Assembly: GCF_000165465.1 (NCBI RefSeq)
Contig: NC_017455.1
Location: 310,001-374,000, forward strand
Length of the DNA stretch: 64,000 nt
Reading direction: 5' to 3'
Source: Halanaerobium praevalens DSM 2228
GTDB taxonomy: Bacteria; Bacillota; Halanaerobiia; Halanaerobiales; Halanaerobiaceae
The notes under the pieces were generated by a model. The model did no database searches and was not told where the DNA came from. It was given only the letters and a program-made list of their open reading frames with translations. Positions within the stretch are counted from its first letter, which is position 1; every line of letters starts with the position of its first letter. A program made the translations under genes and the position numbers. Shown piece by piece: positions 5,837 to 53,905 of the stretch.

Positions 5837-6655
5837 ATGAACTTAAAAAGTAATTCTTTTCTAAACTACGAAAAAAAAGGGGTTAAGATTACTATTCGTA
5901 GTGATCTTAATCCAAAATGGGTAGAATCCTTTTTAGATGAATTTTGTTTTGGCTTAGAAAATAAATCTAGAAATGAAAAAGTTTTATATGATAAAAGAAA
6001 TACAATCACTAAAATAAATGATCAGATTTTAAAAAAAGAAATAGCAGTTAAAGAATTTCATTTAACTAAAACTTATGATCAACTTCGTTTTAGAATGCTG
6101 CCATCTAAAGCAGAGCGTTCACTCAACCTTGCTAGAGCTTTAGAGAAGATTGGCCTCCAAACACCTGCTCCCTTAGCTGTTATTGAAAAAAGGGGTAAGA
6201 CTAATCAACTTATCTTTAGCTATTATATAACTGACTATGTTGATTATGATTTTAATCTGCTCGATATTGCTAAAAATTTTGAACATCCAGAAAGATATAA
6301 AGTTAAAGAATTAATGCCTAAACTGGGTCAAGAAATTAAAAAAATGCACCAGGCAAAGATTGTCCATAATGATTTACATGCAGGTAATATTTTAGTTAAA
6401 GATTTCGAAATTAAGCCTAAATTATATTATATTGATTTAAATCGGGGTAGAATTAAGGAAAATCTTTCACAAAAAGAAAAAATAGATGATCTTAAAAGAT
6501 TGAAATTTACTGAGCAGGAAAAAAAGATTTTATTTAAAAATTATGCTCCAAAAAATTGGAAGTATTATCAAAAAAAAGTTACTAAGGCAAGACAGAAGCG
6601 AAGAAAATTTGTCAAAACTAAAAATAAAATCAGAAAGTTTTTAGGAATAAAATAA
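5837..6655 (+). CDS. LPS core kinase (WaaP/RfaP/Kdo kinase family)
   Basis: This 272-residue kinase has a good lipopolysaccharide-kinase signature. IVHNDLHAGNILV near residues 174-186 is the catalytic HxDLHxxN loop, and LYYIDLNRGRI supplies the metal-binding Asp. The ATP-binding lysine is probably in LKKEIAVKEFH. It should phosphorylate an inner-core sugar of a lipid-anchored saccharide in the cytoplasm. It is the last gene of the polysaccharide cluster and its stop codon is embedded in a terminator hairpin. Together with the 585-1403 gene it brackets the three glycosyltransferases. Core phosphorylation is a trait of outer-membrane cells. Confidence 0.8.
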   Translation: MNLKSNSFLNYEKKGVKITIRSDLNPKWVESFLDEFCFGLENKSRNEKVLYDKRNTITKINDQILKKEIAVKEFHLTKTYDQLRFRMLPSKAERSLNLARALEKIGLQTPAPLAVIEKRGKTNQLIFSYYITDYVDYDFNLLDIAKNFEHPERYKVKELMPKLGQEIKKMHQAKIVHNDLHAGNILVKDFEIKPKLYYIDLNRGRIKENLSQKEKIDDLKRLKFTEQEKKILFKNYAPKNWKYYQKKVTKARQKRRKFVKTKNKIRKFLGIK

Positions 6656-6697
6656 GGCTAATTAGATTAAATTAAGTTAGTCTTATTATTTTTGATT
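6651..6697 (+). terminator. Rho-independent terminator of the polysaccharide cluster
   Basis: AATAAGGCTAA (6651-6661) can pair with TTAGTCTTATT (6677-6687), with one G-U pair. ATTTTTGATTT follows. The 5' arm includes the stop codon of the kinase gene. Confidence 0.6.
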
Positions 6698-6732
6698 TAA
6701 AATTCACAATAATCAAATTTTATTTTTAAATA

Positions 6733-6760
6733 TAAAAAAAGACAGCCTATTGACTGCCTT
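6733..6760 (-). terminator. Terminator of the tRNA-Glu gene
   Basis: On the minus strand AGGCAG pairs with CTGTCT (one G-U) across an 8-base loop and is followed by seven T residues (A run at 6734-6740 on the plus strand). It lies just downstream of the tRNA. Confidence 0.7.
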
Positions 6761-6770
6761 AATCACAAAA

Positions 6771-6846
6771 TGGTACCCTCAAGGGGATTCGAACCCCTGC
6801 CGCCAGGATGAAAACCTGGTGTCCTAGACCCCTAGACGATGAGGGC
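6771..6846 (-). tRNA. tRNA-Glu (anticodon TTC)
   Basis: The reverse complement folds as a full 76-base tRNA. The acceptor stem GCCCTCA pairs with TGAGGGT. The anticodon stem is CCAGG/CCTGG with loop TTTTCAT, giving anticodon TTC, and the T arm is AGGGG TTCGAAT CCCCT. The 3' CCA is encoded (TGG at 6771-6773 on the plus strand). Confidence 0.97.
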
Positions 6847-6879
6847 AAAACCTATACAGTTTTGTTGACTGCAATAAAT

Positions 6880-6908
6880 ATAATAGCACAGGTTGCTTAT
6901 TTAGTCAA
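6880..6908 (-). promoter_or_regulatory. Sigma-A-type promoter of tRNA-Glu
   Basis: Read on the minus strand there is TTGACT, a 17-base spacer and TATTAT, ending about 33 bases upstream of the tRNA 5' end. Confidence 0.8.
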
Positions 6909-7070
6909 GAAAAATACAAAAGAAATATTATTTAGAATTTTTAGTTTTAATTTTAAATTGTTTTAATTAGTCAAAATCAACTTTTAAGTTTTTAAATAAG
7001 AATAATTACTTTTAAAAAAAGGAGGAAAAAAACTAATCTAGAATAGTATATTTAGAGAGAAAACTATTAT

Positions 7071-7098
7071 TTGACTTAAAATTGATTATAAATATAAA
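7071..7098 (+). promoter_or_regulatory. Probable promoter of the flavoprotein gene
   Basis: TTGACT (7071-7076) and TATAAA (7093-7098) are separated by 16 bases, 32 bases before the ATG at 7130. The rest of 6909-7129 holds only an unused AAAGGAGG-like stretch near 7014-7025 with no start codon behind it. Confidence 0.55.
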
Positions 7099-7129
7099 TT
7101 ATTTAAAATATTAATTAGGAGGAATTAAA

Positions 7130-8476
7130 ATGAAAATTGCAGTAATTGGAGCAGTTGCAGCTGGAACTAGTGCAGCAGCTAAAGCACGGAGAACAAACAA
7201 AGAAGCAGAGATAGTTGTTTTCGAAAAAGGAATTGACATTTCTTATGCTGGTTGTGGTCTACCCTATTATATATCCGATATAATAGAAGAAAGAGATCAA
7301 CTTTTAGCTTTTACTGCTCAGACTTTTGCCGATAAATATGGAGTTGAGCTTAGAACAGAGCATGAAGTTAAAGAAATTGATCCAGCTAAAAAAATGATTT
7401 ACTATGATCATTTAGCGGAATCTAAAAAAGGTGGTTATGAATATGATAAATTAATAATAGCTACAGGAGCAACTGCTATTGAGCCTCCTTTTCCTGGTTT
7501 AGAATTGAATAATATTTTCACTTTACGCTCTGTTAATAGTGCTGATAAAATTAAAGCAGCTGTAAATTCTGGTCAAGTTAAAAAAGCAACAATTATTGGA
7601 GCAGGACTAATTGGATTAGAAATGGCAGAAGCTTTTAGTGAGCGAGGAATAGAAGTTACTGTGGTTGAATTACAAGAACAAGTATTACCACAATTCAGTC
7701 CAGAAATGGCAGAGCTTGTAGCAGAACATCTAGAAGCAAAAGGGGTAAAACTAATTTTAGGTGATGGGGTTGACCATTTTGCGGGAGAAAAAGAATTAGC
7801 AAAAGTAGTTACAGCTTCTGGTAAAGAAATTGAGGCTGATTTAGCTTTGCTTTCAATTGGAATTAAAGCAGAAACAGAACTTGCTCAAAAAGCAGGAATA
7901 GAAGTTGGAGAAAGTGGAGCAATTAAAGTTAATCAAAAATTAGAAACTAACCTTAAAGATATTTATGCAGCAGGAGATTGTGCAGAATCTACTGATCTTT
8001 TAACAAATAAACCAGTTTGGATTCCTTTAGGTTCAACAGCAAATAAACAGGGAAGAACCGCTGGTGAAAATGCAGCTGGGGGAGATGCTAAACATTATGG
8101 TATTTTAAAGACAGGTATTACTAAAATCTTTGATTTAACAGCAGCTACTACAGGTTTAACATTAGAAGAAGCCGAAGCTGCTGGTATTGATGCTTTTGAA
8201 GTTAAAATAAAAGCTCGTAATCATGCTGGTTATTACCCTGGAGCAGCTCCAATTCATCTTAAAGGAGTATTTGAAAAAGAAAGTGGAGTTATTGTTGGAG
8301 CAGAAGTGATTGGTGGTAGTGGTTCAGATAAGAGGATTGATGTCTTAGCTACAGCCATTTATAATCGGATGACAGCTGATGAGTTATTTCAGGTTGATCT
8401 CGCTTATGCTCCTCCTTATTCAAGTCCTAAAGATCCAGCTGCTGTTTTAGGTATGGTAGCAGCTAAAAAACTTTAA
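7130..8476 (+). CDS. CoA-disulfide reductase / NADH oxidase-like flavoprotein
   Basis: The product is 448 residues, the usual length for this FAD-dependent pyridine-nucleotide disulfide oxidoreductase group. The N-terminal FAD motif is GAVAAGTSAAAKARR. The redox cysteine lies in SYAGCGLPYYI (near residue 43), the single-Cys signature of CoA-disulfide reductases and water-forming NADH oxidases. GAGLIGLEMAEAF near residue 160 binds NAD(P)H, and IYAAGDCAE is the second FAD motif. The C-terminal dimerisation domain ends with AYAPPYSSPKDP, also typical. It probably protects an anaerobe from oxygen or keeps CoA reduced; which of the two cannot be decided. AGGAGG precedes the ATG. It is convergent with the next gene and shares its terminator. 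Confidence 0.8.
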   Translation: MKIAVIGAVAAGTSAAAKARRTNKEAEIVVFEKGIDISYAGCGLPYYISDIIEERDQLLAFTAQTFADKYGVELRTEHEVKEIDPAKKMIYYDHLAESKKGGYEYDKLIIATGATAIEPPFPGLELNNIFTLRSVNSADKIKAAVNSGQVKKATIIGAGLIGLEMAEAFSERGIEVTVVELQEQVLPQFSPEMAELVAEHLEAKGVKLILGDGVDHFAGEKELAKVVTASGKEIEADLALLSIGIKAETELAQKAGIEVGESGAIKVNQKLETNLKDIYAAGDCAESTDLLTNKPVWIPLGSTANKQGRTAGENAAGGDAKHYGILKTGITKIFDLTAATTGLTLEEAEAAGIDAFEVKIKARNHAGYYPGAAPIHLKGVFEKESGVIVGAEVIGGSGSDKRIDVLATAIYNRMTADELFQVDLAYAPPYSSPKDPAAVLGMVAAKKL

Positions 8477-8508
8477 ATTTAGAGAGAAACTTTGTAAATG
8501 AAAGCTTA

Positions 8509-8541
8509 AAAAGAAGGGAGCTTTTGCTCCCTTTATTTTTA
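8509..8541. terminator. Bidirectional terminator between convergent genes
   Basis: AAGGGAGC (8514-8521), a TTTT loop and GCTCCCTT (8526-8533) form a perfect 8-bp stem. It is followed by TATTTTT on the plus strand and by CTTTTT on the minus strand, so it can stop both the flavoprotein and the shell-protein transcripts. Confidence 0.85.
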
Positions 8542-9099
8542 AGTTAATATTTTTGCTATTAATTTTGGTTCAGGACTTGAAATTAAGGCTTTAGAAATTA
8601 AATGCTTATTACCTAAAGCAGATTCTACTGCTTTAATAGCCTGTTTACAGGCTTCATTTTCTCCACTGAAAATAACAAAACCTTTACCACCAATAGCCAT
8701 TGCTAATTTAAGTTCTAATAGTTCAACTTCAGCTGCCTTAACTGCAATATCAGCAGCCTGAATTGTAGAACTAATATTAATATATTCTAAAATTCCTAGA
8801 GAATCAGTTATATCTTTTTTCTTTCTTTTTTTTAATAAAAGCTCTTTAACTTGTTGATTAATATTTGCTAGCAAAAAATGATTAACTAAAGCTTTTTTGT
8901 TTTTAGCAATTTCTAAGCCAGAATTTAAGGCAGTTTCTACAGCACTAACACTACCTGCAAATAAAACACTATATTTACCAGGACAGATAAATTTAGAATG
9001 AACTATTTCTACTGCAGCTGTTTTTAAAATTTGATCTGCAGTTTCAATTCCAACCGCTATTTTGGAAAATTCTATTAAAGCTAAACTATTATTATTCAT
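8539..9099 (-). CDS. PduT-type tandem-BMC shell protein, divergent copy
   Basis: This 186-residue protein has two BMC domains in tandem (about residues 5-85 and 97-180), so trimers act like one hexagonal shell tile. Domain 1 carries HSKFICPGKYS with Cys39. In PduT-family proteins this Cys-Pro-Gly-Lys motif at the pore binds a [4Fe-4S] cluster, so electron transfer across the shell is a likely function. A lysine-rich linker (LLLKKRKKKDI) joins the domains and is unusual for the family. A GTG at 9106-9108 lies inside the Shine-Dalgarno (AAAAGGTGG), so the ATG at 9099 is the better start. The gene is divergent from eutS and is a paralogue of the gene at 25814-26362. Confidence 0.85.
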   Translation of the reverse strand: MNNNSLALIEFSKIAVGIETADQILKTAAVEIVHSKFICPGKYSVLFAGSVSAVETALNSGLEIAKNKKALVNHFLLANINQQVKELLLKKRKKKDITDSLGILEYINISSTIQAADIAVKAAEVELLELKLAMAIGGKGFVIFSGENEACKQAIKAVESALGNKHLISKALISSPEPKLIAKILT

Positions 9100-9208
9100 T
9101 TTGACCACCTTTTTTAAAATTAATTTAGTTGTTCTAATGCTTATATTTTAGCAAAAGAGGCAAAAATCCTTTAAAAAAATAAAAACTTGAGTTAATTGCT
9201 AAAAGTTC

Positions 9209-9237
9209 TTGCTTTTACTAACTTATTATGATACAAT
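9209..9237 (+). promoter_or_regulatory. Promoter of the eutS-eutW transcript
   Basis: TTGCTT (9209-9214), a 17-base spacer and TACAAT (9232-9237) lie just upstream of the hairpin leader. Transcription would start near 9245. The remaining part of the intergenic stretch on the minus side (9100-9208) shows no convincing consensus promoter. Confidence 0.65.
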
Positions 9238-9260
9238 TTTTCTAAGAAAAATGAATAGTA

Positions 9261-9350
9261 GATTGCACAATGGAGTGTGATCATAACTAATAAGCAAAGA
9301 AGCTTGTAGAAAAGGGATATTTATGTCCTTTTTATACAGGCTTTTACTAT
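9261..9350 (+). promoter_or_regulatory. EutV (ANTAR) antitermination leader of eutS
   Basis: Two hairpins with six-base loops precede a terminator. Hairpin P1 is GATTGCAC (9261-9268), loop AATGGA, GTGTGATC (9275-9282). Hairpin P2 is ATAAGC (9290-9295), loop AAAGAA, GCTTGT (9302-9307). Both loops have A at position 1 and G at position 4, the known recognition features of ANTAR-domain antiterminators such as EutV. The 3' arm of P2 is also the 5' arm of a 16-bp terminator, GCTTGTAGAAAAGGGA (9302-9317) with TCCTTTTTATACAGGC (9326-9341), one mismatch, then TTTTACTATTTTTT. Binding of EutV to P1-P2 would therefore prevent the terminator. The identification rests on structure drawn by eye. Confidence 0.85.
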
Positions 9351-9385
9351 TTTTTGAGAAAAAAGTTTCAAAATGGAGGGTTCTT

Positions 9386-9748
9386 ATGGGAGAAAAAGAA
9401 GAAGTTGTAGAAAAACAAAGGATAATTCAGGAATTTGTACCTGGAAAACAGGTGACTTTAGCACATATAATTGCTAATCCCCAAGAAGGGATTTATCAGA
9501 AATTAGGTTTAGTTGATCAGGTAAATGATGCAATAGGAATTTTGACTATTACTCCCAGTGAAGCTTCAATTATTGCAGCCGATGTTGCCACAAAGGCAGC
9601 GGGTATCGAAATAGGCTTTATAGACCGTTTCAGTGGTTCTTTAGTAATTACTGGAGATGTAGCAAGTGTTGAATCATCAGTTAAAGAAATTATGAATATT
9701 TTACAGAATATATTAGATTTTACTCCAGCTAAAATTACTCGAACATAA
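9386..9748 (+). CDS. eutS: EutS/PduU-type circularly permuted BMC shell protein
   Basis: The 120-residue product begins with the extended N-terminus [21 protein letters not shown], which forms the beta barrel cap of EutS/PduU. A BMC domain with permuted order follows ([31 protein letters not shown]). It forms hexameric tiles of the ethanolamine microcompartment shell. A longer frame opens at 9323, but that ATG sits in the loop of the leader terminator. The ATG at 9386 has GGAGG seven bases upstream and matches the family's N-terminus. It is first of the eutS-P-V-W operon and is controlled by the leader at 9261-9350. Confidence 0.93.
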
Positions 9749-9766
9749 CAATAGGTGAGCACTTAA

Positions 9767-10195
9767 ATGAAAAAAGCAATGTTGATTGGAAAAAGTGGTA
9801 GTGGAAAAACTACCTTAATTCAGCTTTTAAGTTCGGAAAAAATAAGGTATAATAAAACACAGGCAATGGAATATTATCCAGAATTTATTGATACACCTGG
9901 TGAATACATTGAAAGTAGGCGTTATTATAATGCTATTATTTCTTCAGTAGACCAATGTGAAAACATGGTTTTAGTTCAAGCAGCTACTGATCATGATAGT
10001 GTTTTTCCGCCGAATTTTGCTAAAACTTTTAATCAAAATATTTTGGGTGTAATAACTAAAATAGATAAAGATTCTGCCCAAATAGAACAAGCAGAAAAAA
10101 TTCTGCAAAGAGCAGGAGTTAATAAAATTTTCAAAATTAGCTCTATCACAAAAGAAGGCTTAGCAGAATTAAAAAAGTATTTAAAAATAAAATGA
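9767..10195 (+). CDS. eutP: EutP/PduV-like small GTPase
   Basis: The 142-residue protein has the GTPase/P-loop motif GKSGSGKTT near residue 8, a DTPGE G3 motif near 43 and TKID as G4 near 104. It has the size and order of EutP, an accessory nucleotide-binding protein of ethanolamine operons; some family members act as acetate kinase, and others are linked to microcompartment positioning. It follows eutS by 18 bases and precedes eutV. Confidence 0.88.
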   Translation: MKKAMLIGKSGSGKTTLIQLLSSEKIRYNKTQAMEYYPEFIDTPGEYIESRRYYNAIISSVDQCENMVLVQAATDHDSVFPPNFAKTFNQNILGVITKIDKDSAQIEQAEKILQRAGVNKIFKISSITKEGLAELKKYLKIK

Positions 10196-10218
10196 TTTAG
10201 GTGAGAAAGGGGAAGACT

Positions 10219-10803
10219 ATGGGAAAGAAAATAGTAATAGCCGATGATGAACCTATTACTATCATGGATATCTCAGAGATTTTGACTGAGGAAGGTTACA
10301 ATGTGGTAGCTGAAGTCTCAGATGGTTTTGATGCTATTGAAGCTTGTCGTCAGCACAAACCTGATCTTGCTCTACTTGACATTAAAATGCCACTTTTAAG
10401 TGGGATTAAGGCAGCTAGGATTATTAAAGAAGAAGAATTAGCTGAAACAATAGTTTTTTTAACTGCCTATAGTAACAAAGATTTTATCAGTCAGGCAAAA
10501 GAGGTAGGTATAATGGGTTATTTAGTTAAGCCTGTAGATAAAGCAAGCTTATTACCTGTAATAGAACTTGCCATTGCTAAAGGCGAAGAAATGGTAGATA
10601 TTAAAGAAAATATTAAAGTTTTAAAAAGTAAATTAGAAAAAAGAAAATTAATCAGCAGAGCTAAAGGGATTTTAATGGATTCTGAAGGCCTCTCGGAAGA
10701 AGCAGCTTATAATAAAATTCGGAAATTAAGTATGGATAAAAGATGTTCAATGAAGGAGATAGCTCATGTAATTATTATTAACAATAATTGCCTGGGTAAT
10801 TAG
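10219..10803 (+). CDS. eutV: EutV response regulator with ANTAR RNA-binding output domain
   Basis: The receiver domain (residues 1-120) has acidic residues D9-D10, phospho-acceptor D54 in LALLDIKMPL and the conserved lysine in GYLVKPVD. The C-terminal part (about 135-190) is an ANTAR domain, with SRAKGILMDSEGLSEEAAYN and RCSMKEIAHVII. Phosphorylated EutV dimerises and binds paired hexaloop hairpins to stop terminator formation; candidate targets are the leaders at 9261 and 12251. A GTG at 10201 lies within an AGGTGAGAAAGGGGAAG ribosome-binding stretch, so ATG 10219 is chosen. The sensor kinase gene starts two bases after the stop. Confidence 0.93.
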   Translation: MGKKIVIADDEPITIMDISEILTEEGYNVVAEVSDGFDAIEACRQHKPDLALLDIKMPLLSGIKAARIIKEEELAETIVFLTAYSNKDFISQAKEVGIMGYLVKPVDKASLLPVIELAIAKGEEMVDIKENIKVLKSKLEKRKLISRAKGILMDSEGLSEEAAYNKIRKLSMDKRCSMKEIAHVIIINNNCLGN

Positions 10804-42961: not shown

Positions 42962-43588
42962 ATGACTAATTTATTGATCACATATTATAGTTCTTATGGA
43001 CATATGTTTAAGATGGCCCAGGCAGCTAGAGATGCTGCAGCTGAACATGATGATTATCAGGTCAAACTTCGTAAAATACCTGAGTTAGAAGCTGCTGAAA
43101 AAGCAATGTCAAGCCAAGATCCCTACTTAGCAGCTCAAAAAGAGCAGGCTGAAATAACTGAAGTAAGCTTAGATGATTTAGAATGGGCTGATGGTATTGT
43201 TTGGGGTATTCCAACCAGATTTGGTAATATGCCAGCTCAAGTTAAACAATTTATTGATACTGCTGGCGGGCTTTGGGCCGAAGGTAAACTTGAAGATAAG
43301 GCAACAGGTATTATGAGCAGCACAAATACTATCCATGGTGGTCAAGAGAGTACAATTTTAACTTCAATGATGCCTTTACTCCATTTTGGAATGATTTATG
43401 TGGGTTCCACTTATGGCCAAAACCCAGAATTGAGTCAAGATAAAATACAAGGTGGTTCACCTTATGGTCCTTCTACAATTGCTGGTAGTGATGGGAGTAA
43501 ATCGCCAACAGAAGGTGACTTAAAGATGGCTGGAAGACTTGCTAAAAGAGTTGCCAGAGTCGCTAAAGGTATTAACTTAACTAAGTAA
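42962..43588 (+). CDS. wrbA: WrbA-type NAD(P)H:quinone oxidoreductase
   Basis: The 208-residue flavodoxin-like protein has the FMN phosphate loop YYSSYGHMFKMA at the N-terminus, GIPTRFGNMPAQVKQFIDT near residue 85, and MSSTNTIHGGQESTILTSMM and GGSPYGPSTIAG near the C-terminus, all classic WrbA. It carries out two-electron quinone reduction and limits oxidative stress. GGGAGG precedes the ATG. It is a single-gene unit with its own terminator. Confidence 0.93.
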   Translation: MTNLLITYYSSYGHMFKMAQAARDAAAEHDDYQVKLRKIPELEAAEKAMSSQDPYLAAQKEQAEITEVSLDDLEWADGIVWGIPTRFGNMPAQVKQFIDTAGGLWAEGKLEDKATGIMSSTNTIHGGQESTILTSMMPLLHFGMIYVGSTYGQNPELSQDKIQGGSPYGPSTIAGSDGSKSPTEGDLKMAGRLAKRVARVAKGINLTK

Positions 43589-43650
43589 TTAATTTTGTTA
43601 TTAGAAATATCCTTTTTATTAAATTAAAATAATAAATTTTATGCTACTCT

Positions 43651-43681
43651 AAAACCTCAGTTTTTAAACTGAGGTTTTTTC
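43651..43681 (+). terminator. Terminator after wrbA
   Basis: AAAACCTCAGTTT (43651-43663) and AAACTGAGGTTTT (43666-43678) form a perfect 13-bp stem with T residues following. Confidence 0.92.
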
Positions 43682-43749
43682 TATAGCTTAAAAGGATAAT
43701 TTATTTACTTTTATTGATTATAATATTTAATAAAAAAGATTAAAGTTAA

Positions 43750-43779
43750 TTGTAAATTCAGTCTAATTAATGATAAAAT
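43750..43779 (+). promoter_or_regulatory. Weak candidate promoter of the Wadjet operon
   Basis: TTGTAA (43750-43755) and TAAAAT (43774-43779) are 18 bases apart, 38 bases before the jetA ATG. Other AT-rich candidates exist nearby. Confidence 0.3.
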
Positions 43780-43816
43780 TAATTTATTCAATAAAACTAA
43801 AGTTGGAGAGGATTTT

Positions 43817-45307
43817 ATGGAAAGAGCCAACATCGGTCTAAATGAAAGGCTAAAGAAAACCAAAGCTATAGCAGAATTGGGGCAGGGAATGGATACTGGT
43901 TCTTTAAGAGATTATGCCCATCAAATTGCTCTTTATCTTTTGCTGAAAGTTTTTAAAAGAGAAATTAATAATAATAACCAGCGCAGTCGCAGTGATTTAA
44001 TTCAAATGACTATAGAAATTTTAAAAGAGATGGAGCTTCAGATAAAATTAGAAGAGGTTGCAAGGTTGGTAGATGGTGTTCTTTATGCAGGTGATCCTAA
44101 AAAACAATCATATTTTAAATTTAAACTTTATGATCAAAAAAGCCAAAGTTTTAAAGATTTTAAGTACCGTTATTTAATCCCTGACCGAGAATATTCCAAA
44201 TGGGAACAAGGTGGAAAAACTATTTATCGTTTATCTGATATTTCACAAGAAATAATTTTTATTACTCGTGAAATTCTGCAAGAGTTTGGCTTTGATTTAG
44301 AACAATTTTATACACTGCAGTTAATAAAAAATGGGAATTTTAAAGAGGCTAAAGGTAGTGTCAGTAATTTAATTGCACGTGTACAAAATTTAATAAAAAA
44401 AGAAAAAGATTGGCGGGAAGACATATTACGCAATCCAGGCCTCATATTTTCTGCTTATAAAGAAAGGCGTCGAAAAACAGAAGCTCAAGTTAGAGAACAG
44501 TTTGCAGAAGAGAAAAAAGTATTTAGTGATATCTTTATTTGGCAAGAAAGACTTAATAATTTTGAAACTGCTGCTAAAAAAGAAGGAGAACTTTTATTTA
44601 AAGAATTAGAGCGGGCCCGAGAACTTCATGACCTTTTAGCTGATCTTACAGTTTCTAATTTAGCTTTAGAATTTAGATTACGCCGAGAAAGTCCTGAGCT
44701 TTTTTGGCAAACTTCACAACTTAGTTTTAAAAAAGATTTTTGGCAGAATACAATTGTTAAATCTGGATTAGCTAAAATTGATGATTTAGAAAAAATATTA
44801 AAACCACTTTTTTCTCCTCAACAAGACTTTATTTTTCCTTTAGATTGGGCTTGGTCTGAACAGCAATTATATAGGGAATTAGCAGAGGAACAAACAGATA
44901 TTGAGCCAATAGAAATTGAAGCAGCACCTAAAAGACAAATTGACTGGGAGCTTGTCGTCGAACTTTGGCAGGATGTTTTTAAGCAATTATTAGTCAAAGG
45001 AGAATTTAATTTAATTCAACTTAATCATTTGAGTTTAGCAGAAAAAGAAAAGTGGTTAAGTCAAAAAATTAATTTAGAATTATTTATGATGTTTATTGTT
45101 ACTAAGCTCGAACTTAAAGTAAAAAAAGATTATAAAGTTTTGGATGAGCGCTTAATACTTTTTAACAAATTAATTGAGCTTAAGCCAAAATTAGCCAACT
45201 TAGCCGGCCGACAAATTTCTGCAGAGCTTGTAGATGCTAAGCAAAGAGTAAATTTACTTGATCAGTTTGTTATTTCAGCTTATAAAATTTATCTGGAGGC
45301 AGATTAA
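43817..45307 (+). CDS. jetA: Wadjet JetA (MukF/kleisin-like subunit)
   Basis: The 496-residue protein is mostly helical. The N-terminal region (DTGSLRDYAHQIALYLLLKVF, LIQMTIEILKEM, YRLSDISQEIIFITREILQEFGF) resembles the winged-helix and MukF-like part of JetA/MksF. A long helical linker (residues about 190-290, KERRRKTEAQVREQFAEEKK) follows. In Wadjet complexes JetA is the kleisin that bridges JetC heads and recruits JetB. The assignment rests mainly on gene order with JetB, JetC and JetD and on overall architecture. Its stop is one base before the jetB ATG. GGAGAGG precedes ATG 43817. Confidence 0.8.
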   Translation: MERANIGLNERLKKTKAIAELGQGMDTGSLRDYAHQIALYLLLKVFKREINNNNQRSRSDLIQMTIEILKEMELQIKLEEVARLVDGVLYAGDPKKQSYFKFKLYDQKSQSFKDFKYRYLIPDREYSKWEQGGKTIYRLSDISQEIIFITREILQEFGFDLEQFYTLQLIKNGNFKEAKGSVSNLIARVQNLIKKEKDWREDILRNPGLIFSAYKERRRKTEAQVREQFAEEKKVFSDIFIWQERLNNFETAAKKEGELLFKELERARELHDLLADLTVSNLALEFRLRRESPELFWQTSQLSFKKDFWQNTIVKSGLAKIDDLEKILKPLFSPQQDFIFPLDWAWSEQQLYRELAEEQTDIEPIEIEAAPKRQIDWELVVELWQDVFKQLLVKGEFNLIQLNHLSLAEKEKWLSQKINLELFMMFIVTKLELKVKKDYKVLDERLILFNKLIELKPKLANLAGRQISAELVDAKQRVNLLDQFVISAYKIYLEAD

Positions 45308-45308
45308 A

Positions 45309-46073
45309 ATGGGATTTAAACAAGAAGATTTAGAAAAAGGAGCAGCGCTCTTTTTTAAGCTTTTAGCAGAACAAATAATTTCTATCTCTGACCCCTTAGC
45401 AGAAGCATATAGTAAAAATAGTGAAATACATAATATTGTTCACACAATGGCTGCTGAGGCTGGTTTAAGAGTTTTTTCAACTCCGAAAAATGTACATTTA
45501 GTTTCTAGAGCTAGAGACTCTAATTTTGCTAATTCTTATACGCAGATGAAAGCAAAATATCCAGGTTTAACAAGAAAGCGCAAATTTTATTTAGCAAATA
45601 TAATAATTTCTATTTTTTTAGCTGAAATTGATAAAGAAAATCATATCAGAATTAGATGGGAAGAAGAAGGTGTTTCCTATTATCATCTGGCAGATTTAGT
45701 GACAGCAACTTTAAAAAGCTGGTTAAAACGTCAAAGTGAAGAAGATTGTTTTAGTGAAAACTGGGCCCTTGCAGTGGAAGAAGTAGGAGAATTATGGTTA
45801 ACTGAGTTTAGCCCCTATCGCTTAAATAAAGATGATAAAATTGAAGTTACTAGAACTAAAAACAATCAGCTTTCCTTTATTAATACTGCTTTAAAACCTT
45901 TAGTTAAACAAGGTTTAATTATAGATCAAAAAGATGAATTGAAACTTATTCCCAAGCCAGAACTATATGAACGTTTAGATGATCTTTACCATAAGCAGGA
46001 GCGCTATAAAAAATTTCAAAAATTAATAAGAGAAAGTCGCGAAGAATTAGAGGAGGAAAAGAAAAATGCCTAG
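45309..46073 (+). CDS. jetB: Wadjet JetB (MukE-like kleisin-associated subunit)
   Basis: The 254-residue protein has winged-helix-like segments (RKFYLANIIISIFLAEIDKENHIRI; LSFINTALKPLVKQGLIIDQKDELKLI) of the kind found in MukE/JetB, which bind the kleisin. The earlier frame start at 45258 lies inside jetA; ATG 45309 follows TGGAGGCAG. The 3' end overlaps jetC by eight bases, which implies balanced production of the complex. Confidence 0.8.
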   Translation: MGFKQEDLEKGAALFFKLLAEQIISISDPLAEAYSKNSEIHNIVHTMAAEAGLRVFSTPKNVHLVSRARDSNFANSYTQMKAKYPGLTRKRKFYLANIIISIFLAEIDKENHIRIRWEEEGVSYYHLADLVTATLKSWLKRQSEEDCFSENWALAVEEVGELWLTEFSPYRLNKDDKIEVTRTKNNQLSFINTALKPLVKQGLIIDQKDELKLIPKPELYERLDDLYHKQERYKKFQKLIRESREELEEEKKNA

Positions 46074-49000
46074 GCTGAATAAAATTAGAATTACTGGTAA
46101 CCGTTATGATGGTTTTAAAAAACAGTATCGTAATTCAATTTTTAGTTTAGATTCAAAGCATACACTTTTTACATTGCAAAATGGGAGTGGAAAAGGGGCA
46201 ATGCTCCAGTTGATATTTCAGCTTTTACTTCCTGGTACTGCTTGGGGAAGCCAAAATGGTAATCAGTTAGAAAACATGTTCTATAATCGTTACGGAGAAT
46301 TTAGACAATATACTTTTCATGTTGTACTTGAATGGAGTTTAGAGGGATCTGAGAATAAAAAATTACTTAGTGGAATTTGTGTTTCAGCTAATCAACATAA
46401 ATTAGCAGGTGAAGAAGAACTCAAAATTGGTTTAAAATATTTTCTTTATACACATCAATATCAAAACAGAAGTCAATTTAGTTTAAAAAATTTACCTCTT
46501 TATCAGGAAGAAAAAGATAAAGTTCTGCAATATGATGAAATGGAAAAATTTGTTGATCAAAATAGGGCTGAACTAGTTAAATATTATAAAAGTTCAGTTT
46601 CTACTCCTAACTCTGAATATTATCAGTACCTAAGCAGTCATGGTATTTATCGTTCCGAGTGGGAAATCATGAAAAATATTAATCGCAGTGAAGGTGCACT
46701 AGAAAGACATTTTGCTAAAGCTAAAGATAATCAAGCTCTTTTTGATCAAATAATAATTCCAGCTGTGAGTGAAAGTATTAGTTATCATGATCAAGGTCAG
46801 AAAAAATCTTTAATTAATCTTTTTATAAATAATATAGAAATCGCTCAAGATTTGCCAGAATTATTATCTAGGGCTGATGATTTAAAAAAATTGGATTATT
46901 TAGTTGAGCCACTTTTACAAAATAGCCAAAAAGGACTGCGTTTACAAAATACAAAAGTAATGATTAGAGAGCGGGGAAATAATTATTTAAGAGGAATAGA
47001 AACCCGCTTATCCTTTTTAGAGAATGAATTAAGCCGCAGTCAGGCAGAAAAAGTTAAAACTAAAAAAAGTATTAAAAATCTTAAATTTGAAGCTGAAAAT
47101 CTTAAATATGTTAAAAAATTGCGAGAATTAAAAAAATTACAAACAAACTTAGAGAGCAGTTTAATCAAAAAATCTGAGTCTGAAAAAACCTTAGCTGAAA
47201 TTAAAGCTGAAAAATTACATTTAAAATTGAATCAAAAATATATCAAATTTGAAAAACTCAAAACAGAAATAGAACAACAAAAGATTAAAATTGATTTACT
47301 TAAAAAAAGACCAGAGTTTAATGATTTAGAGATTCAAATTAAAGATTTAAAAACAGAAATAGCGGCAGCAAGCTTAGACTTAAATACTAAAATCAAAAAA
47401 TCTTTTACTGCTTATTATTCTTATCATAATTATTTAACTAAAGAGTTAAAAAGAATGGAGAATAAAGAGGATGAGCTAGAGCAGCAGTTTAGATCTAAAC
47501 AGAAAATCAAGATTGACTATGAACAGCAAGCAAGAAACTTAAAAACAGAAAAAAATAAATTAGCTAGTTTTTTTAATTCTTTAGAATTAGAGACTCCAGC
47601 TTATTTACTCCAAAATTTAGAAAAGAAAGAGCAAAAATTAGATTCAAAGTTAGAAAAAATAGAAGAAAATTTAAAGGCAGAAACTAAAGCAGCAGCACAT
47701 TTGGAAAATGAAAAACATCAAGTAGAAATTAAATTAGCTAAACAAAAATCTCAAGTTGATAATTTACAAATTAGTTTAAAAGATCAAAAAGAGGCAGAAG
47801 AAGATCTTTATTTAAAGATCTTAAAAAGCTTAAACTTAGACCAATTAGATGAATTTTATAGTAAAAAGTGGCTGCAGCAGAAGAACAAGAAAATTTTACA
47901 AATAATTAAAGCAAAAGAAAAACGTTTACAGAAATTAAGTGCTAAAAGTTTTGAATTGCAGCTTGATTTAAATTTAAATGATCAAGAATACTGGATTGCT
48001 AGTTTAGAACAGAAGCGGCTTTATCAAAAAATAAAAGAACTTGATATTTCTGTTTATTATGGTTCTCAATTTCTATTGGAAATGGTTGAAGATAGTCAAA
48101 AATACTTAAATGACTATCCACTTTTACCATATGGCCTAGTTATTATTAATCAGCTAGATTGGAAAAAGATAAAAGACAATATTTCACCAACCCAAATTTT
48201 TCATTCTGCAGTACCTATTTTTATTAATAATCAATTAGATCAAGTTGATTTCAGACTTCCTTTTAAGTTAGTCACAGGTCAAGAAAAAAATTTTATTAAA
48301 GCAAATAAAAATTTTGAAGATTGGTCTCAAGCTTTAAAAGATAAAGAATCAGAGTTTCAAGCAACAATTACTATTTTAGAAAATAAATTAAAAAAATTAA
48401 AAAAAATAAATTATCAAGCAGAAGCTAAACTGCAAAAAAAATCAGCTTCTGATTTAAAAATAGAAATGGAAACAGCAGCAGTAGAATTAGAAAATTTAGA
48501 AAAAGAAATTAAAAATTTAGCAGATAAAATTGAAATTAAAAATAAAAAAATTAGTGAATTAAAGCAAAAATATACTAAGACAGAGAATAAATTAAAAAAT
48601 TTGAAAGATAAAAAGCAAAAAGTTGATATTTTTTTAGAAGCAAATAAAAATTTAGAGGCTAAAAAAGCTCGCTATCAAAAAACTTTAGCTGAGCTTGAAA
48701 ATTTAAAACAATTAAGTTTGGAAAACAAAAATAAATGGCGGAGAATTCATGAAAATAAAGTGCAATTGAATAATGACTATCAGCAGTGGTCAAAAAAATA
48801 TTATAAGTTTAGTACTGAATTAAAACAAATGCTAGCAAAAGAAGCATTTAAATTAAAAACTGATTTTAAAACAAAAGATTTAAATCTTTTTGCTAATCCA
48901 GAATATCCAGATTTTTATAATTTTGAGCAGCATCATAGTTATCAAAAATATGAAAGAATTATTCAGTTAAAAGAAAAAGAAGCTGACAAAGAGGCTAATT

Positions 49001-50550
49001 TAAAGTATTTAGAGCTGGATTTAAAAAATAAATCAGCAGAACTAGATCAGCTTAGAAATGAATTAGCTCAGCTAGCAGCTGACTGGGAACAGAGAGAATA
49101 TAGTTTTAAAAATTTAAGACAAATAGAATTTGCTTTAGCAGAGCTGAAAACTCAATTAAATAAAATTGAAGCAGAAACTGAAGCATTAAAAGAAGATATT
49201 ATTATCAAAAAAACTAAATTACAAGAAAAAAAAGAACATTTAAGAGAAAGAGCTGCTGAAATTAAAGCACGTTTTCATTGTTCTGTTAAAAATTGGGAAA
49301 ATATTGAACTCAAGCCCAAAAAATTAGAAATCAAAAATCAATTAAAGGAAAATAAAGAATATCTTTTTAAATTAGAAAATATGATTTCAAATTATCAAGA
49401 AAAATTAGGAGAATATCGAGATTATAAGGGTAAGTTAGATTATTATGAGCTTAATTCAGCTAAAGGTGAATTAAATGCTGGAGTTAAGGCTGATCTTAAA
49501 GATTCGCCGGCAGCGGTTGTAAATGATTGGATAGCTGATTATAGGAAGAATAAAGCTAAAATTAAGTCTTTAAGAGAAAAAATTGAAAATAATTTTTATC
49601 AATTTAAAAATGATGTTCAAGTTAGTCTAGAAAATAATTATTTTAAAAATAAAGTCAAAGAAAATTTATTGCAGAATTTTAAGGCTAATGCTTATCAATA
49701 TAATTTAGAAGCTCTTAATATCTTTAAAGAATATATAAATCATGCTTTAAATGATCTTTCTCATGCTCGAGATAAAGCTGAAGAAGCTAGAAATTATTGG
49801 GCAGAGCGTTCTGCTCTTCATGTGATGAGATTAATTAATTCGATGCAAGATATGATTAGCAAGATGGTTTATTATAATCAAAAGGGGATTGCTTTTCCTT
49901 TGGTAAAATTAAGAAGAACTGATCTGCTACCTGATGATAAGAAGGAAATTATATTTGAGCTTAGCCAATATTTTTTAGAACTAATTACTAAATTTAAAGA
50001 GCAAGATATTGAAATTGAAAAATTATCAGAGTCTAAACTTGAAAAGTATTGTGGAGATACTGCTCTCTTTTCTCGGGCACTGAGGGGTCGTTATCCAGTG
50101 CTTCAGGTTTATAAGATGACAGAGAAAAATGAATTTTTATATGCTAAACCACAATCTTATTTTTATTCAGACTGGGAATCTGTTATTAAGGGTAAAGGAA
50201 AAGCTACTGAAGGAAGTGGGGGCCAATCACTTTCGATTAATGCTTTTATGATGATGATGCTTTTAAATTATAAAAAACAAAATTTAGCTCGCACAAATCC
50301 TTGGACAACTCTTTTTTTAGATAATCCTTTTGGTAAAGCTTCAGCAGCTCATGTTTTAGATCCTATTTTTAAAATTGCTGATAAATTAAATTTTCAACTA
50401 ATTGCTTTTGCTGCTCCTGAAATTATTAAAAGTGAAATTAGTGAACGTTTTCCAGTTTTTTGGGCCTTAGAAGTTGCCCATGATGATCAAAATCGAGGAA
50501 CTATTGCGGGGGAGTTGGCTTCTGGTGCTCGAAAAAGAAAATTGGATTAA
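46066..50550 (+). CDS. jetC: Wadjet JetC (SMC/MukB-like ATPase)
   Basis: This 1494-residue SMC-like protein has an N-terminal Walker A region, LFTLQNGSGKGAMLQ, with Lys43 followed by Gly instead of Ser/Thr. A coiled coil runs for roughly 1000 residues of Lys/Glu-rich heptads, broken near 660-760 by a hinge-like globular segment. The ABC signature is GSGGQSLSINAF near residue 1382 and Walker B is TTLFLDNPFG near 1415, with Asn after the Asp. In Wadjet, JetABC extrudes DNA loops and senses small circular plasmids, which JetD then cuts. GAGGAGG precedes the ATG. It overlaps jetB, and jetD starts within it. Confidence 0.88.
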   Translation: MPRLNKIRITGNRYDGFKKQYRNSIFSLDSKHTLFTLQNGSGKGAMLQLIFQLLLPGTAWGSQNGNQLENMFYNRYGEFRQYTFHVVLEWSLEGSENKKLLSGICVSANQHKLAGEEELKIGLKYFLYTHQYQNRSQFSLKNLPLYQEEKDKVLQYDEMEKFVDQNRAELVKYYKSSVSTPNSEYYQYLSSHGIYRSEWEIMKNINRSEGALERHFAKAKDNQALFDQIIIPAVSESISYHDQGQKKSLINLFINNIEIAQDLPELLSRADDLKKLDYLVEPLLQNSQKGLRLQNTKVMIRERGNNYLRGIETRLSFLENELSRSQAEKVKTKKSIKNLKFEAENLKYVKKLRELKKLQTNLESSLIKKSESEKTLAEIKAEKLHLKLNQKYIKFEKLKTEIEQQKIKIDLLKKRPEFNDLEIQIKDLKTEIAAASLDLNTKIKKSFTAYYSYHNYLTKELKRMENKEDELEQQFRSKQKIKIDYEQQARNLKTEKNKLASFFNSLELETPAYLLQNLEKKEQKLDSKLEKIEENLKAETKAAAHLENEKHQVEIKLAKQKSQVDNLQISLKDQKEAEEDLYLKILKSLNLDQLDEFYSKKWLQQKNKKILQIIKAKEKRLQKLSAKSFELQLDLNLNDQEYWIASLEQKRLYQKIKELDISVYYGSQFLLEMVEDSQKYLNDYPLLPYGLVIINQLDWKKIKDNISPTQIFHSAVPIFINNQLDQVDFRLPFKLVTGQEKNFIKANKNFEDWSQALKDKESEFQATITILENKLKKLKKINYQAEAKLQKKSASDLKIEMETAAVELENLEKEIKNLADKIEIKNKKISELKQKYTKTENKLKNLKDKKQKVDIFLEANKNLEAKKARYQKTLAELENLKQLSLENKNKWRRIHENKVQLNNDYQQWSKKYYKFSTELKQMLAKEAFKLKTDFKTKDLNLFANPEYPDFYNFEQHHSYQKYERIIQLKEKEADKEANLKYLELDLKNKSAELDQLRNELAQLAADWEQREYSFKNLRQIEFALAELKTQLNKIEAETEALKEDIIIKKTKLQEKKEHLRERAAEIKARFHCSVKNWENIELKPKKLEIKNQLKENKEYLFKLENMISNYQEKLGEYRDYKGKLDYYELNSAKGELNAGVKADLKDSPAAVVNDWIADYRKNKAKIKSLREKIENNFYQFKNDVQVSLENNYFKNKVKENLLQNFKANAYQYNLEALNIFKEYINHALNDLSHARDKAEEARNYWAERSALHVMRLINSMQDMISKMVYYNQKGIAFPLVKLRRTDLLPDDKKEIIFELSQYFLELITKFKEQDIEIEKLSESKLEKYCGDTALFSRALRGRYPVLQVYKMTEKNEFLYAKPQSYFYSDWESVIKGKGKATEGSGGQSLSINAFMMMMLLNYKKQNLARTNPWTTLFLDNPFGKASAAHVLDPIFKIADKLNFQLIAFAAPEIIKSEISERFPVFWALEVAHDDQNRGTIAGELASGARKRKLD

Positions 50551-51685
50551 GCTGTTTAATAATTTTAAAAAAACAGAGCTTAAAAAAAGAAAACGATTTA
50601 ATTTAAATGACTTAGAAGTTTATATCAAAGAAAAATTAGGAGGGGCTGCTTTTTATCAAGCTGCTGGAGGCTATCAAAAGTTTTTTCAGCTTTTAAAAAA
50701 ATTAGAAGCTGATAAACAAATTAGCGCAATTAAAAGTTCTGATTTCAACCAACGCCGCCCTCAGCTTAAAAAGCGCTGGACATTAATAGAAGAGAAATTT
50801 TCAGGCTGGTCAGATAAGGATATTGTCAAACTTTCGCGGCTGCTGGATCTCAGCTATTATCTTAAAAGAAGCAAAAAACAGACTCCAAAATTGAAAATAA
50901 TGCTTTTTAAAATAGCTAAATTTTTAAAAAATAAGCAGGAGCGCGAATGGGCCAGCAGAGAAGAGCGTTCTTTAGAGTTGTTTGGAGATGAAAAATTTCT
51001 AAATCAAAGTCAAGGTAAAAAATTATTAACTAATTTAAAATTAAATTTAGTTGATTTAAAGGCTGAGCATTATAAGCATCTTTTTGTTTACTGGACTTTA
51101 AATCCTACTCAAATTAATAATATCTTAATTATGGAAAATCATTCTGCTTTTATAGGAGCTAAAAAAGCTTTGGCAGCTGGAATTAATATTTTTAATCAAA
51201 ATTTTGATACTGTAATTTATGGCCAAGGCAAAAAAATTGTTAGAAGTTTTTCTTTTTTAGAAGAACTTTTGGGACTAAAACCAGTCGAAGAAAATCAATC
51301 TTATTTAACAAATGAATTAACAAAGGCAGAAGAAAAATTAAAAGACGAAGCTCTTCGGGCTAAGCTTAATATTTATTATGCAGGTGATTTAGATCCAGAA
51401 GGATTAGCTATTTATACAAGTTTGAAAGCTAAATATCCTAAATTTAAAATTAAACTTTTAGGGGAATATTACCAATTACTTTTTAGACTAAATAAGGGAC
51501 CTTATCCTTGTCAAAATAAGCAGCAGAAAAATATAAAAGTTCTCAAAGAAGTGATAAGAGAGCTGAAGCAGGCTAGTTTTGAAGACTTAAGCTTGGACTT
51601 TGAAAATCTTTGGTCTAAAAATTTAAGACTGCCCCAGGAATTAATTACTTTAGAAGTTTTAAAAAAATTCAAAGAGATTAATTAA
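50525..51685 (+). CDS. jetD: Wadjet JetD (TOPRIM nuclease subunit)
   Basis: The 386-residue protein has a basic helical N-terminal domain and a C-terminal TOPRIM-like domain. The catalytic-glutamate motif is ILIMENHSAFIGAKK near residue 200 and the metal-binding Asp motif is YYAGDLDPEGLAIY near 283. This looks more like the DUF2220-type JetD than DUF2399. JetD cleaves plasmid DNA after JetABC stalls on a small circle. The longer frame begins at 50474, but GTG 50525 follows GGGGGAG by ten bases. It overlaps jetC by 26 bases. The subtype of the system is left open. Confidence 0.85.
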   Translation: MLEKENWIKLFNNFKKTELKKRKRFNLNDLEVYIKEKLGGAAFYQAAGGYQKFFQLLKKLEADKQISAIKSSDFNQRRPQLKKRWTLIEEKFSGWSDKDIVKLSRLLDLSYYLKRSKKQTPKLKIMLFKIAKFLKNKQEREWASREERSLELFGDEKFLNQSQGKKLLTNLKLNLVDLKAEHYKHLFVYWTLNPTQINNILIMENHSAFIGAKKALAAGINIFNQNFDTVIYGQGKKIVRSFSFLEELLGLKPVEENQSYLTNELTKAEEKLKDEALRAKLNIYYAGDLDPEGLAIYTSLKAKYPKFKIKLLGEYYQLLFRLNKGPYPCQNKQQKNIKVLKEVIRELKQASFEDLSLDFENLWSKNLRLPQELITLEVLKKFKEIN

Positions 51686-51706
51686 CTATTAGTTTTGGCT
51701 TAATTA

Positions 51707-51715
51707 TGCTATAAT
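51707..51715 (+). promoter_or_regulatory. Extended -10 promoter of the diguanylate cyclase gene
   Basis: TGCTATAAT lies 22 bases after jetD and 68 bases before the ATG at 51783. No good -35 element is visible. Confidence 0.55.
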
Positions 51716-51782
51716 TAAGAAATAATCTTATTAAGAAAAAATATTAAAAAGAATAGATTAATTAAATTAAGGAGAAATAGAG

Positions 51783-52862
51783 ATGGAAATTAAAGATAAG
51801 GTGAGACTTAGCTTAGAAACAAAAATATTTAAAACTATTTTGATTTTTAATATAATAATTTCCATAATAAATATAGTAACAAATTCATTAATTGGTTTTA
51901 GTTTTTGGATTAGTCTCAAATGGGTAGCTCTATCTATTTTGGCTTTAGCTATTTTAGTTTTGAGTAGAAAGAAAAATTTTAGGCAATTTCAGTTTAGATT
52001 AAGTTATTTTTTGTTTTTAATTTTTGTATTTTTTCCTTTTGGCTGGTTCCAATCTGGAGGTAGTTCTAATAATAGCTTAGCTTATATTTTCTTAACTACA
52101 ATTGCAATTTCTTTTTTATTTAAAAGAGGTAAAGTAAGAGATTTTCTTTTTTTTAGCTTAGTTTTAATTTTTATAATGCTTTATTGTATAGAATTTTTTT
52201 ATCCTCATTTAATAATTTTTCATAGTCAAGAATCTCAGTTTTATGATCGTTTAATTCAAATCCCTTTAATTTTATATGCTTCTTATCTAATGTTAGAAAG
52301 GTTTTCTGATGCCTATAATCAGGAAAAAGATAATTTGAAATTATTGACTAAAAAATTAAGACTTGCTAATCAAAAATTAGAAAATATTGCTCACCGTGAT
52401 CCTTTAACTAAAAAATATAATCGGCGGGCTTTTGACCAAGAGATAAAATCTATTTTTAAAGAGAAGTTACAGTTGCAAAAAAAGATTACTTTGGTTTTAA
52501 TAGATGTTGATAACTTTAAAGATATAAATGATAATTATGGTCATGATAAAGGAGATGAGGTATTAGTTTTAATTTCCCAACGTTTAGAAACTTTTATGCC
52601 AGCTCAAAGCTTAATAGCACGTTGGGGTGGAGATGAGTTTGCAGTTATTAGTTATGAAGATGAATATCAGACTCAACTTTATTTAGAAAAATATTACCGT
52701 GAAATGGAAAATCTAAGTACAGAACTTGGCTTTAAAATTAGTTTTAGTGCTGGTTTAAGCTGTTTAAATCAAAAAGATACTGTAAAAAAAATTTTTCAAA
52801 GAGTAGATAAGCTATTATATGAGTCAAAAAGAGAAGGTAAGGCAAGATATAAATTATCTTAG
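51783..52862 (+). CDS. Membrane diguanylate cyclase (GGDEF)
   Basis: The 359-residue protein has six or so hydrophobic segments in residues 15-180, a short coiled linker (KEDNLKLLTKKLRLANQKLENIAHRDPLTK-like; DPLTKKYNRRAFD marks the domain start near 210), and a GGDEF domain with an intact RWGGDEFA active-site loop near 280-285. It should make cyclic di-GMP. No EAL domain is attached, and the inhibitory RxxD site is not obvious. GGAGAAATAG precedes the ATG. It is monocistronic; a terminator follows. Confidence 0.93.
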   Translation: MEIKDKVRLSLETKIFKTILIFNIIISIINIVTNSLIGFSFWISLKWVALSILALAILVLSRKKNFRQFQFRLSYFLFLIFVFFPFGWFQSGGSSNNSLAYIFLTTIAISFLFKRGKVRDFLFFSLVLIFIMLYCIEFFYPHLIIFHSQESQFYDRLIQIPLILYASYLMLERFSDAYNQEKDNLKLLTKKLRLANQKLENIAHRDPLTKKYNRRAFDQEIKSIFKEKLQLQKKITLVLIDVDNFKDINDNYGHDKGDEVLVLISQRLETFMPAQSLIARWGGDEFAVISYEDEYQTQLYLEKYYREMENLSTELGFKISFSAGLSCLNQKDTVKKIFQRVDKLLYESKREGKARYKLS

Positions 52863-52889
52863 ATTATAAGATATAATATTAATTAAAAA

Positions 52890-52916
52890 AGCAGTTCTCG
52901 CTGAGGGCTGTTTTTA
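52890..52916 (+). terminator. Terminator after the diguanylate cyclase gene
   Basis: AGCAGTTCTC (52890-52899), loop GCT and GAGGGCTGTT (52903-52912) pair completely when G-U pairs are allowed. TTTAAATT follows. Confidence 0.7.
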
Positions 52917-52933
52917 AATTGGAGGTTATAAAA

Positions 52934-53905
52934 ATGAACATTGTAGCTTTAGATGCTTATGCTTTAACTCCAGGGGATTTAAAATGGAAGCAAATAAAAG
53001 AACTAGGAGAAATTGAGATTTACCAAAGTACTTCCGAAGCTGAAATTATTAAAAGAGCTGTGGGAGCAGATATTTTGTTAATTAATAAAACACCTTTAAA
53101 AAGTAAAACAATTGAGTCTTTAAAAAACTTAAAGTATATAGGAGTTTTATCAACTGGTTATAATATAGTTGATTTAAAAGCAGCCAGTGCTAATGATATT
53201 ATAGTTACTAATATTCCTGATTATGGGACTGATTCTGTTGCTCAATTTGTTTTTGCTTTATTATTAGAACTAACTCAACAGGTTGGCTATCATAATCAGC
53301 AGGTGAAAGCTGGAGCTTGGACTGAAAAAAAATATTTATCTTTTTGGGATTATCCTTTAATTGAGTTAAAAAACAAGGTTTTGGGGATTGTTGGCTTTGG
53401 CAATATTGGTCAGCGAACAGCTGCATTAGCTTTGAGTTTTGGCATGGAAGTAATAGCTTTTGATCCAAATCCAAAAGTGAAAATTAATGATCCAGAAATT
53501 AAAACAGAAAAAATAAAATTTCTTAGTTTAGAAGAACTTTATTCTCAAAGTGATGTAATTAGTTTGCATTGTCCTTTAAATGATTCAACAAGAGAAATGA
53601 TTGACCAAAAAGCAATTGCAAAGATGAAAGCAGGTGTAATTATTATTAATACTGCTCGCGGTCCTTTGATTGTAGAAGCTGATTTAGCAGCTGCCTTAAA
53701 AAATTCTCAAGTCAAAGCCGCTGCTTTGGATGTTTTAGCAGCTGAGCCGCCGGCAGATTCAAATCCACTTTTAAACTCTAAAAAGACCATTATAACTCCA
53801 CATATAGCTTGGGCGACTGAAGAAGCGCGAGAACGTTTGATGACTATTGCTTATCATAATCTTAAAAAATTTATGGAGGGCCAAGTAATTAATCAAGTTA
53901 ATTAA
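52934..53905 (+). CDS. D-2-hydroxyacid dehydrogenase (glycerate dehydrogenase-like)
   Basis: The 323-residue enzyme has the NAD-binding motif GIVGFGNIGQRTAAL near residue 150. The catalytic residues are Arg in INTARGPLIVEADL, Glu in the LAAEPP region and His in TPHIAWAT. The substrate end resembles hydroxypyruvate reductase/glycerate dehydrogenase. The glycerate kinase gene 13 bases downstream supports interconversion of hydroxypyruvate and D-glycerate. ATG 52934 is chosen because the preceding TTG lies in the GGAGG ribosome-binding site. Confidence 0.88.
   Translation: MNIVALDAYALTPGDLKWKQIKELGEIEIYQSTSEAEIIKRAVGADILLINKTPLKSKTIESLKNLKYIGVLSTGYNIVDLKAASANDIIVTNIPDYGTDSVAQFVFALLLELTQQVGYHNQQVKAGAWTEKKYLSFWDYPLIELKNKVLGIVGFGNIGQRTAALALSFGMEVIAFDPNPKVKINDPEIKTEKIKFLSLEELYSQSDVISLHCPLNDSTREMIDQKAIAKMKAGVIIINTARGPLIVEADLAAALKNSQVKAAALDVLAAEPPADSNPLLNSKKTIITPHIAWATEEARERLMTIAYHNLKKFMEGQVINQVN

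Follow-up and report, generated by a model that had tools for sequence, protein, structure and literature searches.

The jetABCD locus of Halanaerobium praevalens DSM 2228 is, on profile evidence, a complete type III Wadjet system on the Halanaerobium chromosome, and its SMC subunit JetC carries Asn at the position of the catalytic Glu in Walker B. The same substitution was found in every type III JetC that could be read. In the branch to which this JetC belongs, the usual Ser/Thr after the Walker A Lys is replaced as well.

Organization of the jetABCD Operon

The window is the whole stretch of DNA that was analyzed, 64,000 nucleotides of contig NC_017455.1 (positions 310,001 to 374,000), and coordinates below are those of the window unless a relative's locus is named. 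The operon and its upstream hairpin are as follows.

43651..43680, + strand: hairpin and T-run, AAAACCTCAGTTTTTAAACTGAGGTTTTTT, a weak assignment
43817..45307, + strand: jetA, kleisin subunit (MukF-like), 496 aa, ATG start at 43817
45309..46073, + strand: jetB, putative KITE (MukE-like) subunit, 254 aa, ATG start at 45309
46066..50550, + strand: jetC, predicted SMC ATPase subunit, 1494 aa
50525..51685, + strand: jetD, TOPRIM nuclease, 386 aa, GTG start at 50525

The ATG of jetB lies one base past the jetA stop codon with GGAGG upstream, and the mechanical open reading frame opens at an upstream TTG. The overlaps are 8 bases between jetB and jetC and 26 bases between jetC and jetD, in agreement with an earlier note on this DNA, which had described four coupled genes with these overlaps and a 1494-residue SMC. 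There were no frameshifts and no internal stops in the four reading frames, and jetC occurs once in the genome, which is a single contig of 2,309,262 bases. The hairpin was read directly in the sequence and is absent from the terminator scanner listing, and its assignment is therefore weak. It probably terminates the upstream flavoprotein gene, in which case jetABCD would form its own transcript. The yield of a promoter scan at the operon was no better than chance.

Identification of the Subunits and the Wadjet Type

The four proteins were compared with the PADLOC JetA-D subtype profiles. JetA matched JetA3 over residues 1-495 (E = 1e-189) and JetC matched JetC3 over residues 1-1471 (E = 2.9e-165), while JetB and JetD matched JetB3 (E = 2.1e-95) and JetD3 (E = 1.4e-86) over nearly their full lengths. 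E-values from 1e-86 to 1e-189, together with the recurrence of the gene set in relatives, are far above chance. The best match outside type III was marginal (JetD2, 1.6e-7), and JetA, JetB, and JetC had no matches to the type I/II PADLOC profiles. The earlier note had called the locus a complete Wadjet operon and left its subtype open, the subunits looking diverged from type I; the four type III matches and the intact genes confirm the first statement and settle the second as type III.

JetA had no Pfam match. Its AlphaFold2 model, built like that of JetD on an alignment of relatives, was of moderate quality (mean pLDDT 76, pTM 0.38), and the sole significant match in a fold search of the PDB was to the MukF chains of MukBEF (E = 6e-4), which, for a model of moderate confidence, bears out the kleisin-like reading given before. 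JetB matched Pfam DUF6063 above the cut-off (E = 1.6e-18), and by its JetB3 and DUF6063 profile matches it is a putative KITE subunit. JetD matched Pfam JetD_C, also above the cut-off (6e-9), and its model was confident (pLDDT 92.5). The only PDB matches of this model with E < 1e-3 were MksG 8b7f from C. glutamicum (8e-5) and JetD 7til from P. aeruginosa (6e-4). PDB searches with the JetC and JetD sequences were uninformative; the fold searches with the JetD and JetA models succeeded. The acidic residues of JetD listed below were invariant in 79/79 JetD of types I-III. JetD has the TOPRIM fold, as previously proposed, and the catalytic acids.

51134..51136, + strand: JetD catalytic acid E204
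51386..51394, + strand: JetD TOPRIM D288-x-D290
51638..51640, + strand: JetD E372

The system shares with Wadjet type III (PADLOC JetA3/B3/C3/D3) the near-full-length matches, the subunit sizes, the TOPRIM acids of JetD and a DN Walker B. With the experimentally characterized Wadjet types I/II and MksBEFG it shares the predicted kleisin-KITE-SMC-TOPRIM set, the ABCD order and the invariant JetD acids, but cross-type profile matches were marginal and limited to JetD, and JetC of types I/II is about 1100-1230 aa, compared to 1494 aa here, with GK[ST] and DE in its Walker motifs. As an operon, jetABCD is ordinary, another representative of the known Wadjet type III. Doron et al. (2018) reportedly included a type III system in their tests.

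The ATPase Site of Type III JetC

The nucleotide-binding motifs of JetC were located as follows.

46180..46197, + strand: Walker A, N39-G-S-G-K43-G44, with Gly replacing the usual Ser/Thr after Lys
50212..50226, + strand: ABC signature G-S-G-G-Q, residues 1383-1387, intact
50320..50334, + strand: Walker B, D1419-N1420-P-F-G, with Asn at the position of the catalytic Glu

An alignment of 32 type III JetC from Bacillota showed no variation at D1419 or N1420, and the Walker B Asp was followed by Asn in 79/79 distinct type III JetC (DNPF in 71 and DNAF in 4, the others being DNLF, DNPY, and DNIF). The Asn was found again in 11/11 further, divergent sequences that were readable. In total, 90/90 distinct readable type III JetC had Asn at this position, compared to DE in 10/10 JetC of types I/II that had been retrieved likewise. 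The type III sample was from Bacillota only, its sequences having been retrieved by PADLOC or JetC searches. Since the Asn is common to every type III JetC read, it is no bar to membership of the type.

Gly followed the Walker A Lys in 59/79 type III JetC, namely one 58-member branch and the sequence of locus L067; those outside this set had GKS or GKT. The branch, which includes the JetC of the window, was supported by an SH-aLRT of 100 with the variable Walker A residue masked from the tree, and it spans Halanaerobiales, Clostridia, Bacillus, Cytobacillus, and Paenibacillus. The distant type III JetC of L067 (positions 6258-10691, genome G127) lies on a long branch outside the main GKG branch and its placement is unsure; its Gly may represent either a second origin or a misplacement in the tree. 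In locus L071, an apparent Pro in this position was a regular-expression mis-hit in the loop NSDGKP, and the true motif is NGGGKS.

Profile-profile alignment of the C-lobes paired LFLDNPFGKAS with FVVIDEAFLKS of types I/II (E 3e-6) and placed N1420 on the Glu of DEAF, and in the N-lobes NGSGKG was paired with GSGKS (E 3.5e-11). This pairing with GKS and DE, and the invariance of the substitutions over many independent genomes, ruled out a sequencing or alignment artefact as the source of GKG and DN. K43 and D1419 are present together with the GSGGQ signature, and both lobes of JetC are strongly conserved overall. A candidate for a type III-specific compensating acid, E89, was rejected: it is conserved, but types I/II have a Glu at the aligned position, and it is therefore not a specific replacement. 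E1452, a further candidate, was invariant in a nine-sequence alignment of GKG sequences; the corresponding stretch in types I/II is APTEK-like. No mention of the DN motif or the Walker A pattern of type III JetC was found among the open-access papers covered by the literature search.

Proposed Mechanism

JetABCD of types I/II cuts circular and not linear DNA, for which it requires ATP and a JetC with a functional ATPase (PMC10586767). Loop extrusion, size sensing and cutting would carry over from the type I/II work by analogy, and homology predicts the detection and cutting of small circular DNA by the present locus. In the mechanism we propose, JetC (SMC), JetA (kleisin), and JetB (KITE) would form a nucleotide-gated DNA-handling complex, which would recognize small closed circular DNA and pass it to JetD. 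The TOPRIM nuclease would then make a double-strand cut, and plasmids would be excluded. JetC would still cycle ATP, with the hydrolysis step rewired or slower. It is highly probable that the locus is a type III Wadjet operon of this kind, in which JetABC senses, JetD cuts and JetC cycles.

Because cleavage depends on ATP and a working JetC ATPase (PMC10586767), the type III Walker pattern was unexpected for a loop-extruding sensor. The changes in the two Walker motifs should slow hydrolysis or stop it, and they are at odds with a loop-extrusion motor unless another residue compensates. We tentatively suggest, as an idea with somewhat less than an even chance, that type III Wadjet SMCs act without the canonical ABC hydrolysis chemistry, either by means of an undescribed catalytic residue or by recognizing plasmids without processive, hydrolysis-driven loop extrusion.

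It is rather unlikely, though worth weighing, that type III JetC is not a hydrolyzing motor, and that ATP binding clamps the heads while the shape of the DNA licenses JetD in a one-shot, Lamassu-like manner. The universal Walker B Asn, set against DE in types I/II, speaks for such a clamp, as does the additional loss of the Walker A Ser/Thr in the window's branch, and the Glu-to-Gln change in Lamassu LmuB has been taken as a sign of low or no hydrolysis (PMC10586767). LmuB is, like JetC, an SMC-like defence ATPase in which the Walker B Glu is replaced (Gln there, Asn here); as compared from the literature only (PMC10586767), it differs in being much shorter and in having no such kleisin, KITE, or TOPRIM partners. 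However, the Lys, the Asp and the signature of the ATPase site are retained in strongly conserved lobes, type I depends on a working ATPase to sense size and shape (PMC10586767), and JetC may use an alternative catalytic residue. We infer that JetC cycling is retained but rewired, and favor this over ATP binding alone because the circle-measuring mechanism seems to need turnover.

Gene Order and Loss of jetD in Relatives

The gene order A-B-C-D was found in a Halanaerobiales clade (L048-L058), whereas the remaining type III loci in which jetD was detected, L113 and L060 among them, had the order D-A-B-C. These were from Clostridia, Bacilli, and deeper branches and included one Halanaerobiales MAG outside this clade. 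Since the ABCD rows form one supported clade of 11 (SH-aLRT 100), the difference is most simply explained if jetD moved once.

In the Paenibacillus branch, 16 of the 22 rows were without a full jetD beside jetABC.

jetD-less loci: L062, L125, L127, L130, L132, L133, L138, L139, L146, L149, L153, L154, L156, L159, L162, L164
jetD-bearing loci: L142, L151, L155, L157, L160, L163

A tblastn-like search of 15 jetD-less Paenibacillus genomes revealed no intact JetD and only one 30-residue remnant, and remnants of jetD containing stops were found just upstream of jetA in L062, L130, L132, L146, L153, and L164. The interspersion of jetD-bearing and jetD-less loci on the tree suggests several independent losses. 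The jetABC genes of the jetD-less loci are intact, and in pairs of these loci the dN/dS of jetA, jetB, and jetC was 0.02-0.12, which is purifying selection. JetABC thus seems to keep a nuclease-independent function in Paenibacillus and, as it persists without jetD in many of them, may have a role besides plasmid cutting.

Distribution, Genomic Site and Selection

The same four-gene set was found in at least 10 other Halanaerobiales genomes, the nearest relatives being in Halanaerobium species. JetC was present in 14/38 genomes of the order and in 7/11 other genomes of the genus. A contig search with a JetC alignment as query found relatives, while one with JetD alone returned none; the full range of type III JetC made an alignment too heterogeneous for scanning. 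Plasmid records searched for type III JetC gave only two weak, partial matches, and there is accordingly no sign that the GKG branch travels on plasmids.

The genomic site was compared between positions 42962-53905 of the window and the orthologous intervals L196-L207. The flanking genes are as follows.

42962-43588: flavoprotein gene, upstream flank of the operon
51783-52862: membrane-type GGDEF (diguanylate cyclase) gene, in the same direction as jetD and about 100 bases past it
52919-53905: 2-hydroxyacid dehydrogenase gene, downstream flank, beyond the GGDEF gene

No GGDEF gene adjoined jetD in the congeners examined, and the one in the window is therefore probably unrelated to Wadjet. Orthologues of the flavoprotein and the 2-hydroxyacid dehydrogenase flank Wadjet in G010, G012, G015, and G016 with varying cargo between them, and the same flanks were found without Wadjet in G014 and G018. 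In G020 the flanks are parted only by a HepT/MNT (nucleotidyltransferase) toxin-antitoxin pair (L199, 3235-4040) and Wadjet lies elsewhere, while in G015 such a pair is directly upstream of jetA (L203, 3219-4015). In Halanaerobium this appears to be a variable position of the chromosome that accepts defence genes. Wadjet occupies the same site in several members of the genus and is missing in others, as is usual for defence genes.

Two congener pairs, L108/L112 and L105/L109, had usable synonymous divergence and were informative for dN/dS. The values were 0.035-0.058 for jetA, 0.012-0.052 for jetB, 0.074-0.075 for jetC, and 0.154-0.236 for jetD. Wadjet is maintained in Halanaerobium, and JetD evolves fastest. 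In another member of the Halanaerobiales, the jetC of L058 (10022-12177, G005) is split by an inserted, insertion-sequence-like ORF of 431 aa, and this interrupted copy is therefore probably dead.

Distinction From Chromosomal Condensins

JetABC is homologous to MukFEB. The fold of JetA resembles that of MukF and the three-subunit logic is shared with the MukBEF/MksBEF condensins, which differ in being without a nuclease partner and are not at the jetABCD locus. If this homology is taken together with the selection on jetABC in those Paenibacillus in which jetD is lost or decayed (dN/dS 0.02-0.12), the operon might be read as a chromosome-organizing, MksBEF-like condensin to which JetD is incidental. 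We regard this as very improbable. At 1.01 Mb, about 0.65 Mb from the Wadjet locus at 0.36 Mb, the genome carries ScpA and its own canonical Smc, whose 1206-aa frame contains GPNGSGKS and LSGGE; moreover, Halanaerobium has an intact JetD that is subject to purifying selection, and the locus is missing in 4/11 other genomes of the genus. The separate Smc/ScpA and the patchy occurrence indicate that jetABCD is not the chromosomal condensin, and the Wadjet assignment of the earlier note stands. Even less credible is an inactive relic with a degenerate ATPase: JetC has lost two canonical catalytic positions, but the substitutions do not vary within entire clades whose members share as little as about 24% identity, all 1494 codons are open, dN/dS is low, and in L058, a relative that does seem broken, the decay looks quite different.

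Implications

The accepted model treats Wadjet as a loop extruder that runs on ATP and measures DNA, and a whole type without the catalytic Glu, in the GKG branch also without the Walker A metal ligand, allows a direct test of this model. The question posed is whether plasmid recognition needs hydrolysis, or whether type III hydrolyzes ATP in another way. If type III does recognize plasmids without processive, hydrolysis-driven loop extrusion, it would be a second SMC route to tell small circles from chromosomes. The jetD-less Paenibacillus loci are natural material for studying the role of JetABC without the nuclease. The hosts of the present operon are salt-loving anaerobes without genetic tools, and removing it could ease their transformation, if the system works as expected.
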